64,000 nucleotides of DNA from Caldicellulosiruptor acetigenus (lineage in GTDB: Bacteria > Bacillota > Thermoanaerobacteria > Caldicellulosiruptorales > Caldicellulosiruptoraceae): assembly GCF_026914305.1 (NCBI RefSeq), contig NZ_CP113866.1:2235501-2299500 (forward strand), in the 5' to 3' direction. How positions within the stretch are numbered: position 1 is the stretch's first letter; every line of letters starts with the position of its first letter. Of the stretch, positions 55,694 to 63,697 are shown piece after piece. Under the pieces are notes generated by a model that was not told the origin of the DNA, ran no database searches, and was given only the letters and a program-made list of their open reading frames with translations. Both the position numbers and the translations under genes were made by a program.

Positions 55694-55781
55694 TGGTGCC
55701 GAAGGCGGGAGTCGAACCCGCACGGCCTCAGCGGCCACTGGATTTTGAGTCCAGCGCGTCTGCCAGTTCCACCACTTCGGC
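55694..55781 (-). tRNA. tRNA-Leu (anticodon CAA)
   Basis: The 88-base gene includes the encoded CCA. The acceptor pairs GCCGAAG with CTTCGGC, the anticodon loop is CTCAAAA, the long variable arm (TGGCCGCTGAGGCCG) marks a class II tRNA, and the T arm reads GCGGGTTCGACTCCCGC. Confidence 0.97.
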
Positions 55782-55799
55782 ACATTTTCCTTTTGAATT

Positions 55800-58200
55800 T
55801 TCAAGCAAGATTGATTATATCATAAATTTTTGAGGTTGTCACACAAGGGACACCAACCAAGATTTGGCTACATATTCACATTTACCGTGCTGGACTTTCA
55901 AAGTTTCTAAATCAAGACATTTAAAAATCCAGCACGCTTTGTTCGTTATTAGTTTAACCTCAAATTCAGGATTATACAATACAGAAATTTTGTTTGTCGT
56001 GAGTGGTCTTTAATTATAAATACCCTATCATAACTTTTGATTTTGTGCTTTAAAATATCGGCTAAAGGCAGCACGCAACAATGAACCTTCTTTAAATTCT
56101 TGCCCCCTACCCCTTGCTTTTGGCTGCTTCATGGCTTTGCTTTCCTTCTTAATTGCTGCCAGAAATCAATTCTATTTTGCAAGCAAAGACCAAAGAAAAA
56201 GTAGTTTGACATATCCAAACATTATTGACGACCTCGCAACTTTCGAACCCCATAACACAACCATTGAATAGACTTTCCTAAAACCAAAAGCTTTTGTCTC
56301 TAAACAGCGCCATAATTTAACATTGCACAAAATTATATTTTTGTGCAAACATAAATTTACATTACCACCTTATTTGTTTTGCTATACCATGGTTTTGACT
56401 ATTCAAATGCCGATAATCGTCTTTGATGTAATTTAATTTCTGTTCTGTAAACTGCCCTATCCCCTTCTTTACCAGTTACAAAATGACACACTTTGACCCT
56501 GTTTTTCTAATTGAAAATCATTCTCAATTAGCCATTTCTCAAGGCTTTGATGTGTAAACCTAACACCCTATCAAGGGTTACTCATTTTGTGCAAAAATGT
56601 CGCATTTTTACACCCATAAAATAATCAAATCTTTAGCTTTACTTTTCACAAACACCTTTCCTAAGGTATCGACATATTATCGACCCCTTACAATCCACTA
56701 ACAAAACTTAGATTTGCGTACATAATATTTAAAACACTTAGAATGCTGCGGCAACTTACCGCCCCATCTCAATGTTGAATAACTCATATACAATTTACCA
56801 ACCAAAAGGAATAGTCAAATCAACTATCCCTTATAACTTCAATTTCATTTTCCAAAAACCACTTTTAAACAAAACCTGAAAAGTCTTGATATTGCTTGAT
56901 TAGAATTAAATTGCTTTCTATTCCTTGATACTTCTAATCTAAAAGACAATTTTTCAAAACAAAATTCTTTGAAATCGGTTTCTTTAGATTTAAAATTCAA
57001 TGGGTAATATTTTTATACCACCCTTAACTTTGTTCGCTATATGTTCGCTATGGTTTTTGAAATTTCAAAAATGTTTTAAGGTCTCAATAAGTTAGGGATA
57101 GCTTTATAAGATAGCTAAAAACAAAAATAAAAAATCCTGTCAAAGCCTTGATACTGCTTAATTTAAAATGATTTGCTGCAAAACCTTGATACACCTATGA
57201 TAAAAGCCATTTTCACAATAAGATTTGTATATAAAGCCTTTATAAGCTTCAAAAAATAGCTGGGTAATATCTTTATATCACCTTTCAAATTTTCGCTTCT
57301 CTATAAGGCTGTATTTTAAAATCTTGACAATCACAAATACACTTTAGATTTTCAGCCTGAAAATCGGGAGTATACTTTGTAAAATCAATGAGAATTGCCA
57401 CAAACATAGAAATGACAAGCCTTTGGACTTTTTTCGTACTTTTTTCGTACTTTTTTCGTAAAAAAGCTGTGTCTTAAAAGCCTTGATATATCTAACATCA
57501 ACCGACTTTTTACCCTTTTTTCGTAAGACATTTTTTAAAAATCTCATGACTAATTTGTCAAGTTAAAACCAGCAGCCAAAGAACAGATTTGACGTGTAAA
57601 CTGCGGACAGGATAAAATAAGACACAACCACATTTTGACCACAAGGAACAATGTAAAATAAAGTCCAGGATTTAAAATTTTAACTGAAATTCTGTAAATC
57701 TTATTTTCTGTTTAGAAGAAGAAATATTTGTATTAAGCTGTATTAATTCTTAATTAAAGTTTAATTTCTTACAGTTTTCAACTTACTTAATTTAAGTCTT
57801 TTATGCTAAAATTATCTTTGGCAATTGATTTTCATAATTATTCTAAATTAATGCATATTTATTCTTTGCAGTGGACAATTTATTTATGCCTTTAATTGCC
57901 ATCATTCAAATTTCAAGCCATTTAGCACAATTAACAGTAAACCAATCAAAAAGATTAACATTCAAAATATGAATAAATTCTTGAATTCCATTATTTTACT
58001 TTTGCTTGATTTAGAATATAATTGCTGCTTAAATATTTATAGTTTTAAAACTTAATTTGTGCTATAATTTACTTTTAAATTTTTATTTGATTATTTCTGA
58101 TAACTTTTGATTTTGCTTTTGTTACTACCTTTATTTCCCTTACCACATTCAGTTTTTAAGCACATTTCAAGCTGATAGGGTATGCAATTCTACAAAGTGG
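55800..58200. repeat. Non-coding AT-rich field with diverged direct repeats
   Basis: No supportable gene in 2.4 kb. A ~165-base unit beginning around CTTGATA-n-GCTT, with a second CCTTGATAC and ending TGGGTAATAT-TTTATA-CACC, occurs at about 56880-57040 and again at 57125-57300; a partial third begins near 57478. Three tandem 11-base repeats of ACTTTTTTCGT lie at 57428-57462. A hairpin CGTGCTGGA/TCCAGCACG spans 55886-55936, and AAAAATG-TCG-CATTTTT lies near 56594. The field adjoins a replication-type helicase gene and could be an origin or partition region. Confidence 0.5.
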
Positions 58201-58213
58201 CTATAAAAAAGAA

Positions 58214-58240
58214 AAGAGACCACAACTAAGGTGGTCTCTT
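58214..58240 (-). terminator. Terminator of the minus-strand element operon
   Basis: A perfect 10-bp stem (AAGAGACCAC with GTGGTCTCTT, loop 7) is followed on the minus strand by TTCTTTTTTATAG. Confidence 0.85.
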
Positions 58241-58330
58241 ATTCTCATTTTATGGATGTTCCATGTTAGAACACCCTGAAATGTGTTTAAAACAATGCTT
58301 TTTTTTATGCTGCCTTTCCAATTTAGAAAG

Positions 58331-58492
58331 TCATTTTTCCATGTATTTTGGACAATGAATTTCCTTCACTCTAAAACTCTGTTTGCAATTCTTCTGGCAT
58401 TTCTCACAAAGAGCATGGTATTGAATTTTACCCTTGTCGTTCTTGAAAAAATACCACTCATCAATATAATTTCTCTTTGTTTTTGTCCTCAT
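58331..58492 (-). CDS. Small Cys-rich (zinc-finger-like) protein, 53 residues
   Basis: The ATG overlaps the stop of the preceding gene (ATGA), indicating coupled translation. The protein (MRTKTKRNYIDEWYFFKNDK at the start) contains CEKCQKNC and a later C in EIHCPKY, a possible zinc knuckle, on a basic background. It is the last gene before the terminator at 58214. Function unknown; DNA or RNA binding is plausible. Confidence 0.6.
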   Translation of the reverse strand: MRTKTKRNYIDEWYFFKNDKGKIQYHALCEKCQKNCKQSFRVKEIHCPKYMEK

Positions 58493-58725
58493 GACAAAGA
58501 CCCCCTTTGTTTTCTGGTTACTGTTAAATACCTGATTAAAAACAACACCAATAGAATGGCTATGTTTATTATCGCTGCAATCAAAAAGATTGTATTAGTC
58601 ATAGCAGCTAAAGATAAAAACAAACTGTGCTGGATTGAGAGTATAAAGCCTTTGTCGTTTGTAAAATAATAAACTGGTAGAAAAGCTAAAAGAACAAAGA
58701 TATAAACTAACAACGCTTCAAGCAT
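58489..58725 (-). CDS. Small two-helix membrane protein
   Basis: About 78 residues from ATG 58725, six bases after GAGGTG. Two hydrophobic helices (LEALLVYIFVLLAFLPVYYF and FLIAAIINIAILLVLFLIRY) are followed by a basic tail. It lies between the helicase terminator and the small Cys-rich gene. No family recognised; holin-like size and topology, but nothing else supports that. Confidence 0.6.
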   Translation of the reverse strand: MLEALLVYIFVLLAFLPVYYFTNDKGFILSIQHSLFLSLAAMTNTIFLIAAIINIAILLVLFLIRYLTVTRKQRGSLS

Positions 58726-58749
58726 GTTGTTCACCTCTTTTCAAAAATA

Positions 58750-58773
58750 GAGGCAGCCTTTTTAGACTGCCTC
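58750..58773. terminator. Terminator after the helicase gene
   Basis: GAGGCAG pairs with CTGCCTC around a 10-base loop; TATTTTTG follows on the minus strand. Confidence 0.75.
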
Positions 58774-60762
58774 TTTATCTAATTTTTTGAGCTCAATAAA
58801 TAGTTTGCCTCCTTCAATATCAGATGTTCTGCCTGGTATTAAACGATATATCTGTCTGCAAACTTTACAAACAAAACAGTCTATAGCCTCGCCATATTCC
58901 AGAATATTACCACATTCACATTTATAATGCTTTGCAGCTTCCCTATAATCTTCTGTCGTTAATAGACTGAAGTTTAATACATAAAATCTTTGGATATCAA
59001 AACCGATAATATGTTTAATATTCTGTTTTTCATTCTGTTTATCAAAACTTAAATTCTTATAAACACAAACAGTTTTCTTAATATCATCTTTCACCTCTGT
59101 AATGTTTGAAACACTTGAAACGTTTGAAACGGTATTGCTTTTATTTACCTCTAAGCCTTGATTTTTGTCTACTTCTGAGCGTTTCAAACTTCTTGAAACA
59201 TTTTGAAACACTTTATTTGACGTTTCATATGTTTCAACTGTTTCAAATGTTTCATGTTTTTCATTTCTTTCGTGAGTGTCAATTTTGTTTATATTTTTTG
59301 TCTCATTATTTGAATTTGAAATAAGCAATGAATAACCATTGTCAGATTTTGTAATTAAACCTCTTTGGGTTAATCGGTATAATATAGTTCTAACAGTATC
59401 AAAATTTATTCCTGTTTCTTTTGCAATTTCATGTGGTTTAGCTATTGGAACTTTTTTAAGATATTCATAAATTTTTCTTTGATTTTCTGATAGTTTAATA
59501 CTGCTGGTTTCGTTTTCATAATCACCAAGCTCTATGTAGCCCTGTTCTTCGTCATAGTCTAAAAGATAATCAAGATAAACTCCACGACCTATAGCCATTA
59601 TACGACGTTGAGTGTCTTTTTCTGTATTAGGTGGCAATCCAAAACCTATTATTGCATCTGCGGCAGATGGATAAGCTGTGCTTCCCATAGGACTATCTAT
59701 AACATCATCCATGTTATAAAGAACACCAGTCCCTTTTTTGCTATGTCTTACACCTATAAGGCTTAAATTTTCTTTTATTAGCTTTTGTCTTATTCTAATT
59801 AAGGTTCCATAAACCTGGTCAAAGTTAGCATTCTTTTTGCTCTCTGCTTGCATTACTTCATTTAAAAGTGTTAAAGGTTCTATTATGATAAGATTGCAAC
59901 TGTGATATTTAGCTGTGTTAACAATCGTGTCAATGTTAAACAAAGAAATTGCTTCTAATTTTTCTATATCAATAATTCGGATATATTTATCTGTATCAAT
60001 ATCTCCATAAAGTTTGATTGAGTTTCTTAATTCTTCTGCTGTATTCTCATTGGTTATCCACAAAATTTTTGGTTCGCTTTCTTGATACACATTTCTTTGA
60101 AAACAATTTTTGCCTAATATTAAACCAGCTATAATTTTGCATAATATTGCTGTTTTGCCCTTTTTGGGTCTACCACATAATAATATCAATCCCTTTGCTG
60201 GTAAAAGTCTGTGTATTCTCCATTTATTCATTCCTAAACTTAGTTCTTTTTCATAGGCTTTTTCTAATGATATTGTTGGTAAGAGATTGTCAAATTGTCC
60301 TGACTCTATAACGGTTTTGATTTTCAATAAATCATCTAATAACTGTTGAATGCGTGTAATGTTACCCTCTTGATAGGCTTTTGTTAACTCTTCACATTTG
60401 TTTAACCCCTGTCTTAAAAGTGATTTCTCTTTAATTATCTTTGCATAATATGTTGCATTTGCTGTTGTTGGAGTATTTATCACAAGGCTTGTCAGATACT
60501 CACTTCCTCCAACTGCATCAAATGTTCCTCTCTCTCTCAATCTTTCAGCCACAGTTATGACATCCACCGGTTTGCCCTCTTCAAAAAGGTCCATTATAGC
60601 AGAAAAAATCTCTTTAAGCTGTGGCATTGCAAAATCTTCTTCTGTTAAAATCTCGGTAACATCAGAAATTACTTCTCTGCTAAGAAGCATAGCACCTATA
60701 ACTGCTTCTTCTGCTTCAAATGACTGTAGGTTGCTTGTATCAGCTTTTAATATAGTTTCCAT
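58762..60762 (-). CDS. Chimeric replication helicase: DnaB N-domain plus RepA-like ATPase
   Basis: Residues 1-150 are a DnaB N-terminal domain (SFEAEEAVIGAMLLSREVIS, GKPVDVITVAERLRERG, GGSEYLTSLV). Instead of the DnaB motor, residues 185-410 form a RepA-like AAA_25/RecA ATPase with Walker A GRPKKGKT at 197-204 and Walker B CNLIIIEPLTLL near 280. A winged-helix region follows (about 415-475, AKPHEIAKETGINFDTVRTI), then a long Glu/Asn-rich linker. A C-terminal zinc ribbon (CECGNIL and CFVCKVC, about 615-635) ends the chain. AAAGGAGG precedes ATG. It suggests a plasmid or phage replication protein that combines helicase, loader-binding and origin-recognition parts. Function is inferred. Confidence 0.75.
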   Translation of the reverse strand: METILKADTSNLQSFEAEEAVIGAMLLSREVISDVTEILTEEDFAMPQLKEIFSAIMDLFEEGKPVDVITVAERLRERGTFDAVGGSEYLTSLVINTPTTANATYYAKIIKEKSLLRQGLNKCEELTKAYQEGNITRIQQLLDDLLKIKTVIESGQFDNLLPTISLEKAYEKELSLGMNKWRIHRLLPAKGLILLCGRPKKGKTAILCKIIAGLILGKNCFQRNVYQESEPKILWITNENTAEELRNSIKLYGDIDTDKYIRIIDIEKLEAISLFNIDTIVNTAKYHSCNLIIIEPLTLLNEVMQAESKKNANFDQVYGTLIRIRQKLIKENLSLIGVRHSKKGTGVLYNMDDVIDSPMGSTAYPSAADAIIGFGLPPNTEKDTQRRIMAIGRGVYLDYLLDYDEEQGYIELGDYENETSSIKLSENQRKIYEYLKKVPIAKPHEIAKETGINFDTVRTILYRLTQRGLITKSDNGYSLLISNSNNETKNINKIDTHERNEKHETFETVETYETSNKVFQNVSRSLKRSEVDKNQGLEVNKSNTVSNVSSVSNITEVKDDIKKTVCVYKNLSFDKQNEKQNIKHIIGFDIQRFYVLNFSLLTTEDYREAAKHYKCECGNILEYGEAIDCFVCKVCRQIYRLIPGRTSDIEGGKLFIELKKLDKEAV

Positions 60763-61541: not shown

Positions 61542-63680
61542 TTACTCTAAAGACATAATCTTAATTTTCTCTATATCACTTAACCCTGAATTGTATTGCT
61601 GTATAAAGCTTATAAATCCTTGTAATAAACCTGCCTGAGCTAACACTTCACCATTTGTAACTGGTTTCTTAGTTTTAGAGTCTATTATATTTCTGCCTTG
61701 GCTGTCTTTAGCGGGTTGATAAAGCCATTCCCATGGTGTTACTGCTAAATCTGGTTGAGTAGCATTTTTATTTTTCTTGTTTTTTGCTTGTTCCTGTAAT
61801 TTCTTTTGATTAGTGGTTATGTCTTTTAAACATTGAGTTATGGCAGCACCTAAAGCTTTATCCATAATCCCTTTGTTCATTTCTGCTTCCAAATCTTTTT
61901 GTGCCTTTTGTAATTGAACACCTTTCAATGACAATTCAACCTTAAATAACTCATTATTTCTGAAATTCTCATCATTCATAATTGCTCTTCTAACTGCTTC
62001 TGTTAATAACTGACTCTCAATAGCTTGCAATTCTAATGGGAATTTCTTATTATTCTGCTGATATTGCTGTTTCAATAACTGCACATCCCAGTAAGCCTTT
62101 TCTATCTGATAAGGAGACATCTTCTGCAATGTATCTGTGTTTATCTTCTGCTGTTTTAATTCCTGTTCCAATATACCGTTTTGCAATTTAGCTTTATCAA
62201 CTTCCAATGCAGCCTGTTTGACTTCATATGGAATTATCTGTTTATTCTTCTCATAGTTTTGAGCTAACAATTTTATCTGATAATCCAATTGCTGCAATTC
62301 TAATGGTGTCATCTTTGCTAACTTATCATTGGTCAACTGCATATTCCTTAACTGCTCTGTTGCCTGCTTTATTTCAATTGGTGCCATCTGTTCTTTGACA
62401 TTTAATTCAAATTTCTTTGTCGCTAACTCTGTTTGTGCAGCTTCCTTCTGGATTGGGAATAATTCCTTGGATTGCTGCAAAGCTGTTTGTTTTGTCGCTA
62501 ATTCTGTCTGTGCCGTCTCTTTCTGAATTGGGAATAATTGTGCTGACTGTTTCTGTTGCTGTTGTGCACCTAATACATTAGACAATGCAGCTGCTATCTG
62601 TGCGTTTCTGTATGGCAATTCAGCATTGTATTGCTGAGCTTGCATTGCCCTTTCAATTGCTTTCTCTCTTTGCTGTGCTATATAATTAGCTATTTGTGCT
62701 CTTCTTTCTTCATCAAGCTGTTCTAATTGTTTTTGTCCCTGAGCTTCCACTTCTGCTATTTTGTCAACCGCATAGCTTGACCTTGCCAGTCCTCTTGATA
62801 ACATTTGATTTGATACATTTGACTTTGCTTGCTCAATAGCCTGTTTTATCTCTTGTGCCCTTTGATTATAAATCGGATTGTATATCGCTTCTGCTTCCTT
62901 CTGTAATTCTTCTGTTGATGGTATTTTAGCAAATTCTTGAGACAATCCCTGTGTCGGTGTTATTGCTTGCAATAAGCTTTCTAAATTAGAAGGTGTCTTA
63001 TATGGCACAATGCCAATATACATTTTGCCTGTCTGTGGGTCTCTATTCCATGTCCAATCAGCATTTGGGTATAAGTCTCTTACCCATATCCATTGACCGT
63101 TTACATTGACATAAGTCTTGTTATCAGGACCAATATAACCCTCACCTAATGCTTTTGGTGTACCGCTTGAAAAATCATAGATGGTTACTTTTCTTGATGG
63201 GTCTTGATACCACAAAGGTTTTGTTGTCGGTGTTGCAACTGATGTTGTTTTTGCAGTTGCCTGTGTTGACTGCGCTGATGGTGTTTGTTTGCTAAGCTGT
63301 GCGTCTAAAACTTTAAAACTTCCCCATGATGGGTTTGTTGTCGCCGTATAACTCAAATTCTGTGGACTTGTCGGTTGATTTAATTGTGCATCCAAAACTT
63401 TAAACTGTCCCCATGATGGTGTTGTCGGTGTTGTTGTCTTTGTCGTCGGTGTAGTTGTTGGTTTAACACTCTGTGCTAAAGATAATTGCTGGTCTAAAAG
63501 TTTGAACTGTCCCCAGCTTGGGTTAGATTGATTTTGCTTAAAATTTTGAATAGCTGTTTTTATTTGTTGCTGTCTTGGTGCAAGAAATTGATTTTGCTTA
63601 AAGTCTTGAATAATGCTTTGAATTTGATTTTTTCTGCTGGTTTGAGTTTGATTGCCTAACCAATCTATTAAGTATGCCAT
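61542..63680 (-). CDS. Large Gln-rich repeat protein, virion-like
   Basis: The 712-residue protein (start MAYLIDWLGN, after AAAGGGTG) has no signal peptide. N-terminal repeats PSWGQFKLLDQQL, PSWGQFKVLDAQL and PSWGSFKVLDAQL (about residues 54-66, 88-100 and 117-129) are joined by Thr/Pro-rich linkers, preceded by a duplicated IxxxIQxFKQNQ. A small globular part (YVNVNGQWIWVRDLYPN) follows. From about 235 on it is a Gln/Ala/Glu-rich coiled coil with repeated ELFPIQKEAAQTELATK units. QMLSRGLARSSYAVDKIAEV recalls internal or tail-associated phage structural proteins. Assignment to a phage particle is tentative. Confidence 0.6.
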   Translation of the reverse strand: MAYLIDWLGNQTQTSRKNQIQSIIQDFKQNQFLAPRQQQIKTAIQNFKQNQSNPSWGQFKLLDQQLSLAQSVKPTTTPTTKTTTPTTPSWGQFKVLDAQLNQPTSPQNLSYTATTNPSWGSFKVLDAQLSKQTPSAQSTQATAKTTSVATPTTKPLWYQDPSRKVTIYDFSSGTPKALGEGYIGPDNKTYVNVNGQWIWVRDLYPNADWTWNRDPQTGKMYIGIVPYKTPSNLESLLQAITPTQGLSQEFAKIPSTEELQKEAEAIYNPIYNQRAQEIKQAIEQAKSNVSNQMLSRGLARSSYAVDKIAEVEAQGQKQLEQLDEERRAQIANYIAQQREKAIERAMQAQQYNAELPYRNAQIAAALSNVLGAQQQQKQSAQLFPIQKETAQTELATKQTALQQSKELFPIQKEAAQTELATKKFELNVKEQMAPIEIKQATEQLRNMQLTNDKLAKMTPLELQQLDYQIKLLAQNYEKNKQIIPYEVKQAALEVDKAKLQNGILEQELKQQKINTDTLQKMSPYQIEKAYWDVQLLKQQYQQNNKKFPLELQAIESQLLTEAVRRAIMNDENFRNNELFKVELSLKGVQLQKAQKDLEAEMNKGIMDKALGAAITQCLKDITTNQKKLQEQAKNKKNKNATQPDLAVTPWEWLYQPAKDSQGRNIIDSKTKKPVTNGEVLAQAGLLQGFISFIQQYNSGLSDIEKIKIMSLE

Positions 63681-63697
63681 GATTAACACACCCTTTC

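Follow-up and report, generated by a model that had tools for sequence, protein, structure and literature searches.

In phage lambda, the iterons of the origin are located inside the coding sequence of the initiator O, an arrangement that the rep gene described here appears to share; O itself has no motor, and P brings the host DnaB. The Rep protein of SaPI is an initiator helicase whose C-terminal part reads iterons located just downstream of its own gene (PMC7581432). The Rep of the present study is similarly a predicted initiator helicase with iterons tied to its own gene, but its putative origin lies inside the gene instead of downstream, and its motor is of the RecA/RepA type, with a fused DnaB collar. 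RSF1010 RepA and the AAA_25 phage helicases, such as GP46 of F13 (PMC8965321), possess the same RepA-type RecA-fold ring-helicase motor; the N-terminus of RSF1010 RepA is short, however, and its primase and initiator are proteins apart from it, whereas in our Rep the collar and a presumed DNA reader are fused. Bacterial DnaB has a similar N-domain and hairpin (Z 23), but the motor of our Rep is of another lineage and is followed by an extra winged helix and a Cys4 end. pRN1 ORF904 and the Prim-Pol helicase initiators likewise combine a primase or its stand-in, a helicase and a winged helix in one chain (PMC4234260, PMC5862659). A candidate origin is again associated with the 3' end of the gene, but that of pRN1 is a stem-loop, essential and located just downstream of the gene (PMC4234260), the motor of ORF904 belongs to SF3, and all these proteins carry a primase of their own. 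Finally, the Rep of Caldicellulosiruptor bescii pATHE01/pBAL (WP_012660750, annotated as 'AAA family ATPase') has a motor, winged helix, iteron-coding linker and Cys4 end that are 46% identical to those of the chimera of genome G002, and the same direct-then-inverted iteron layout, but its N-terminal slot is occupied by a Prim-Pol where the chimeras have the DnaB collar, and it is encoded by a free plasmid devoid of integrase. The 8.3-kb plasmid pBAL (PMC3643907) fits pATHE01 (8291 bp), which is 100% identical to the second contig of a same-genus genome.

The window analysed here is a stretch of 64,000 nucleotides from Caldicellulosiruptor acetigenus, in which an open reading frame preceded by the ribosome site AAAGGAGG encodes a 666-amino-acid Rep (Table 1). 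The original prediction, made from the sequence, had read this protein as a DnaB N-domain joined to a RepA-type ATPase, a winged helix and a zinc ribbon. We found the order to be DnaB N-domain, RepA-like AAA_25 motor, winged helix, disordered linker (residues 482–600 between the winged helix and the Cys4 end, according to AF2) and C4 zinc-ribbon-like end. The four-part reading is confirmed by Pfam for the first two domains, which clear their cut-offs: the domain search matched both PF00772 (E 9.3e-35, 119 bits for a cut-off of 23), so that the N-terminal match holds, and PF13481 (AAA_25, residues 180–345, E 4.6e-13, 49.7 bits for a cut-off of 27). For the winged helix, several families each scored slightly below their own cut-off, in a region modeled with a pLDDT of about 94. 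The last module had no Pfam match in the window Rep, and a paralogue gave weak zinc-ribbon matches under the cut-off; the cysteines (C615-x-C617 ... C632-x2-C635) and a small beta domain of modest AF2 confidence (residues 603–643, pLDDT 76–86) suggest a zinc ribbon. No catalytic primase domain, be it Prim-Pol or Toprim, was detected by Pfam in the chain, and the DnaB collar stands there instead. The AF2 model of the whole protein is moderate (mean pLDDT 67), with an excellent collar and a middling motor. Structure comparison of residues 10–147, comprising the N-domain and the helical hairpin, with the N-domain of Mycobacterium tuberculosis DnaB (2r5u) gave a Z-score of 23.2 and an rmsd of 1.4 over 138 residues.

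The motor belongs to a lineage other than that of DnaB. The best PDB match to the motor profile of the lineage comprising pBAL and the chimera of genome G002 was RSF1010 RepA (1g8y, E 1.3e-8), and PF03796, the DnaB_C motor, gave no match in Rep up to a listing threshold of E 1 and 16–19 bits in its paralogues, below the cut-off of 27. These data bear on the idea that Rep is a diverged prophage DnaB with tail additions, which we consider highly improbable: although DnaB tops the structural matches of the whole model and the best PHROG is PHROG_19 'DnaB-like replicative helicase', it is AAA_25 that is matched and not PF03796, the motor sequence is closest to primase-helicase motors and RSF1010 RepA, and at one point of the alignment with host DnaB the identity goes abruptly from 90% down to about 26%. 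The motor residues K203, E239, E295, H340 and R393 are intact, which supports the helicase function originally proposed and, together with the kinship to RSF1010 RepA, suggests a ring helicase, for which ATP-driven 5'-3' unwinding as a hexamer would be expected; the Walker B acid is Glu295 in Rep and Asp in viral relatives. By its predicted domains, Rep is thus of the kind of SaPI Rep and the primase-helicase initiators, with an AAA_25 motor followed by a winged helix (phrog_239-like). A further, phage-type DnaB frame of the same genome, L143 (G000:C1:438800-442200), encodes 405 amino acids compared with 436 in the sister copy of G008, and has a different C-terminus.

The collar is close to the DnaB of the host. 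Over Rep residues 16–118, 93 of the 103 amino acids are identical, and beyond this point the identity drops to 21–26%, the motor being at about 26%. The helical hairpin has diverged in sequence and kept the DnaB fold, as judged from AF2 and structure comparison. At the nucleotide level the collar is 89–91% identical to dnaB of the same species and of the nearest sisters, with a dN/dS of about 0.15 (89% to host dnaB over Rep residues 16–118), and these comparisons point to its capture from dnaB of the host lineage. Nucleotide identity to host dnaB is 74% at the ends of the collar and 91–98% in its middle; gene conversion by host dnaB is only a suggestion, the runs test on diagnostic sites giving P 0.13, short of significance. 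Other chimeric collars are older (those of loci L034 and L035, about 50% identical to DnaB of the genus) or intermediate (G002, 74–79%). Clade tests, made on a poorly supported tree of the approximately 100-residue N-domain, were compatible with a common ancestry of the chimeric collars (p-AU 0.28); there may have been several captures, or dnaB may have been captured once and the collars later exchanged with that of the host.

The same architecture is found elsewhere in the genus. A second chimera in the same genome (L034) is intact and 42% identical to the window Rep over its full length; it belongs to a different element, which has the 3' end of tRNA-Arg(TCT) repeated at its ends. Further copies are intact in G002, interrupted by one in-frame stop in G003 and broken in G009 and G006, so that DnaB-N with AAA_25, intact or broken, occurs in 5 of 12 Caldicellulosiruptor species. 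Since there are intact paralogues in the same genome and in a sister species, the chimera is not the product of chance or of an assembly accident. Among 398 genomes of the phylum, for each of which the top three candidates were scored, a procedure that could miss a weak chimera, matches spanning collar and motor were restricted to Caldicellulosiruptor. Outside the genus, no DnaB N-domain was found in the 30 best AAA_25 loci of those genomes, scanned on both strands with a few loci giving no scorable frame, or in 34 viral motor relatives. Phage and plasmid collections held no full-length match to Rep, and pattern searches of genome contigs with the protein or the motor alignment gave no matches; the prevalence figures rest on the genome-set search. 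Some candidates proved to be other proteins: a C. difficile 'DnaB-like N-terminal' protein has a DnaB_C motor, a weak PF00772 match in G009 is in the DnaG frame, and those in G000 and G008 are phage-type DnaB. A further weak match, in G007, lies in a frame exactly as long as that of DnaG. The architecture had been presented as one not known to be described. This stands insofar as none was found outside Caldicellulosiruptor in the sets searched, nor in the openly accessible papers searched; it does not for the motor and winged helix, which are well known behind a primase, and the novel part is the N-terminal module.

Rep is encoded by an integrated element of about 10 kb, delimited by 99-bp perfect repeats overlapping tRNA-Leu(CAA), and in two sister species (G006 and G001) the site is unoccupied and contains a single repeat copy. 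Among the features by which phage-inducible chromosomal islands (PICIs) are recognized, the element possesses a site-specific integrase, att repeats, XRE and excisionase regulators and Rep. No packaging or capsid family was matched among the element proteins scanned in the window, and a TerS-like gene of the G003 element, which has a homologue in pBAL, was not seen here. No primase family was found among the element genes examined. The 715-aa protein is without Pfam, PHROG or NCBIfam match and displays three PSWGxFKxLDxQL repeats close to its start. Over about 2.6 kb (55842-58488) the element is almost devoid of open frames above 60 aa. An 11-bp tandem array is a possible second candidate cis-site; it is present as four copies of TACGAAAAAAG in the G002 element (L036 12588-12632), downstream of rep as in the window element. 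Among accessory genes, a sigma-70-like gene is common to the L034 and L035 elements and pATHE01 (80% identity between L034 and the plasmid), and another gene is common to the L035 element and pATHE01 (77% identity), its L035 copy weakly matching the phage terminase small subunit. Rep is very probably the replication initiator of this small tRNA-integrated mobile element.

Table 1. Features of the rep locus, its mobile element and related loci (window positions unless a locus or contig is given).
Feature	Position	Strand	Basis or remark
attL, 99-bp perfect direct repeat over tRNA-Leu(CAA)	55743..55841		repeat comparison
11-bp tandem array, TACGAAAAAAG x3	57428..57461	-	repeat scan
Small membrane-like ORF immediately after Rep; similar ORF in G002 element	58489..58734	-	open frame
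Chimeric Rep gene, 666 aa	58762..60762	-	open frame, ATG start, Pfam, AF2
Zinc-ribbon-like C-terminal region (residues 606-650), C615/C617/C632/C635	58813..58947	-	sequence, AF2
Putative in-gene origin, codes part of disordered linker	59107..59254	-	repeat scan, nulls, AF2
Winged helix (residues 424-479), presumed iteron reader	59326..59493	-	near-threshold Pfam, AF2
RepA-like RecA-fold motor (about residues 178-420)	59503..60231	-	Pfam, residues, motor profile
Helical hairpin (residues 113-155), predicted fold DnaB-like, ~21% identity to host DnaB	60298..60426	-	AF2, structure comparison
DnaB N-domain (residues 12-112)	60427..60729	-	Pfam, host dnaB alignment, structure comparison
Excisionase-family helix-turn-helix protein, 60 aa	60986..61168	-	family match
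715-aa glutamine-rich coiled protein	61542..63689	-	no family match
XRE-type repressor-like protein, 73 aa	63698..63919	-	family match
Tyrosine recombinase gene, XerC/D-like	L033 11073-12032		just past right end of window
attR	G000:C1:2301208-2301306		just past right end of window
Gene content common to elements and pATHE01	L034 12200-13135; L035 12744-14191; L057 3117-4658		

Comparison with related loci revealed what else can occupy the N-terminal slot. In the motor lineage of the window Rep, G021 has PriCT_1 and Toprim ahead of the motor, in an element located between two tRNA-Gly genes and with a 40% identical recombinase, and G348, from another family of the phylum, has a Prim-Pol in front (36% identity to the window Rep over 317 aa). 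In the second lineage, a DnaB collar is found in G002 and a Prim-Pol in pATHE01, the two proteins sharing 46% identity from the motor through the winged helix and linker to the Cys4 end. The recombinase of the G002 element is 92% identical to that of the window element, and their Rep motors come from different lineages. Modules are swapped, and the collar replaces the primase in both motor lineages. Judged from their genes, the chromosomal elements and pATHE01 are kin, and helper packaging may be possible.

Because the N-domain occupies the slot held by a primase in the relatives, these exchanges point to a primase-docking role for the collar. DnaG is known to dock on the N-domain of DnaB, and in Bacillus stearothermophilus the hydrophobic residues I119 and I125 of the DnaB hairpin anchor it (PMC2761005). 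Alignment places L120 and L126 of the chimera at these positions, and since the paralogues have I, T or A at the first, the hydrophobicity of the anchor is only partly kept. As a DnaB N-domain docks DnaG and the host encodes DnaG, which in a sister species bears a DnaB-N-like helicase-binding end, recruitment of the host primase would be the simplest function, and we consider it reasonably probable that the collar docks host DnaG in place of a primase of the element's own. The suggestion that the protein is a loader target found no specific support, the occupancy of the relatives' primase slot favoring primase docking. Two other roles can be envisaged. The collar could only build or hold the ring, as a hexamer-assembly hook, with priming left to transcripts or another primase, for example; RepA-type helicases do require a short N-terminal hook to form hexamers, DnaB N-domains aid oligomerisation (PMC4523182), and the fold of collar and hairpin is intact. 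Yet the relatives' slots hold unrelated primase domains with which their motors manage, so a DnaB collar is not needed for assembly, and near-identity to the host DnaB surface under purifying selection exceeds what a hook needs, making this role unlikely. Even less probable is a hijack of the host helicase, in which mixed collars would bring DnaB or its loader to the element origin or poison DnaB: the dimerisation of DnaB N-domains around the ring and the 90% identity to host DnaB would allow mixed dimers, but a full motor with all catalytic residues would be needless if DnaB were borrowed, and the primase swap would be left unexplained.

The linker-coding part of rep contains ten exact TGAAAC copies, namely four direct at a 9-bp pitch, a pair of inverted copies at 10 bp, a further direct copy and, after a gap of about 56 bp, three inverted at 9 bp. 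The direct-then-inverted layout is kept in the paralogues and in pATHE01 with different iterons (TGCAACA, GTGAACTC and AGAGTGAA). No dinucleotide shuffle of the window reproduced the four-copy array, and five occurrences of a two-copy paired motif were found for 0.02 expected. In a second null the protein was fixed and codons were resampled according to the usage of the gene itself, the statistic being the two-strand count; the observed value was reached in 0.05% of the draws for the window (P 0.0005) and in 0 of 2000 for each of four paralogues. The repeats might still reflect a repetitive, low-complexity linker peptide and not an origin, given that the linker peptides repeat as well (HETFETVET, IHSIHSIHS, ATLATFATF). 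We regard this as very unlikely: besides its rejection by the synonymous-codon null, the inverted copies code for peptides different from those of the direct copies, the geometry is constant while both peptide and iteron sequence vary, and the linker is disordered in the AF2 model. The array is thus a good candidate for an in-gene origin, and the originally predicted role of Rep as an origin binder, itself putative, gains support from the position of the arrays in DNA adjoining that of the winged helix. In all six focal loci the strongest inverted array is at the 3' end of rep, as it is in 18 of the 21 other AAA_25 loci, viral and cellular, that have one. Iteron arrays at the 3' end may possibly be a general origin rule for AAA_25-winged helix genes. 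Strong inverted arrays at this place were noted in the viral or cellular loci L112, L117, L122, L127, L128, L131, L134, L062 and L097.

We thus propose that the winged helix would bind the 9-bp iterons within its own gene, that the RepA-like motor, given its intact residues and its kinship to RSF1010 RepA, would then form a ring helicase on the opened DNA, and that the host-derived DnaB collar would recruit host DnaG, the element needing no primase of its own. This whole model, the initiator of a tRNA-integrated element with in-gene iterons, a RepA-like ring and a DnaG-recruiting collar, is in our opinion fairly plausible. More tentatively, one gene might amount to a nearly complete replicon, with origin, initiator, helicase and a primase-substituting collar renewed by recombination with host dnaB, which would therefore keep fitting host DnaG.

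If true, this would be a mobile element that has given up a primase of its own in exchange for part of the host helicase, a part able to summon the host primase. An exchange of primase for collar has long been proposed for the divide between fused primase-helicases and the DnaB plus DnaG split (PMC4523182), and here it would be seen in closely related elements. The model also yields a testable rule, namely that the genes of AAA_25-winged helix Reps have an iteron origin within or at their 3' end, and it offers a candidate replicon for pBAL, which may be of use in vectors for extreme thermophiles.
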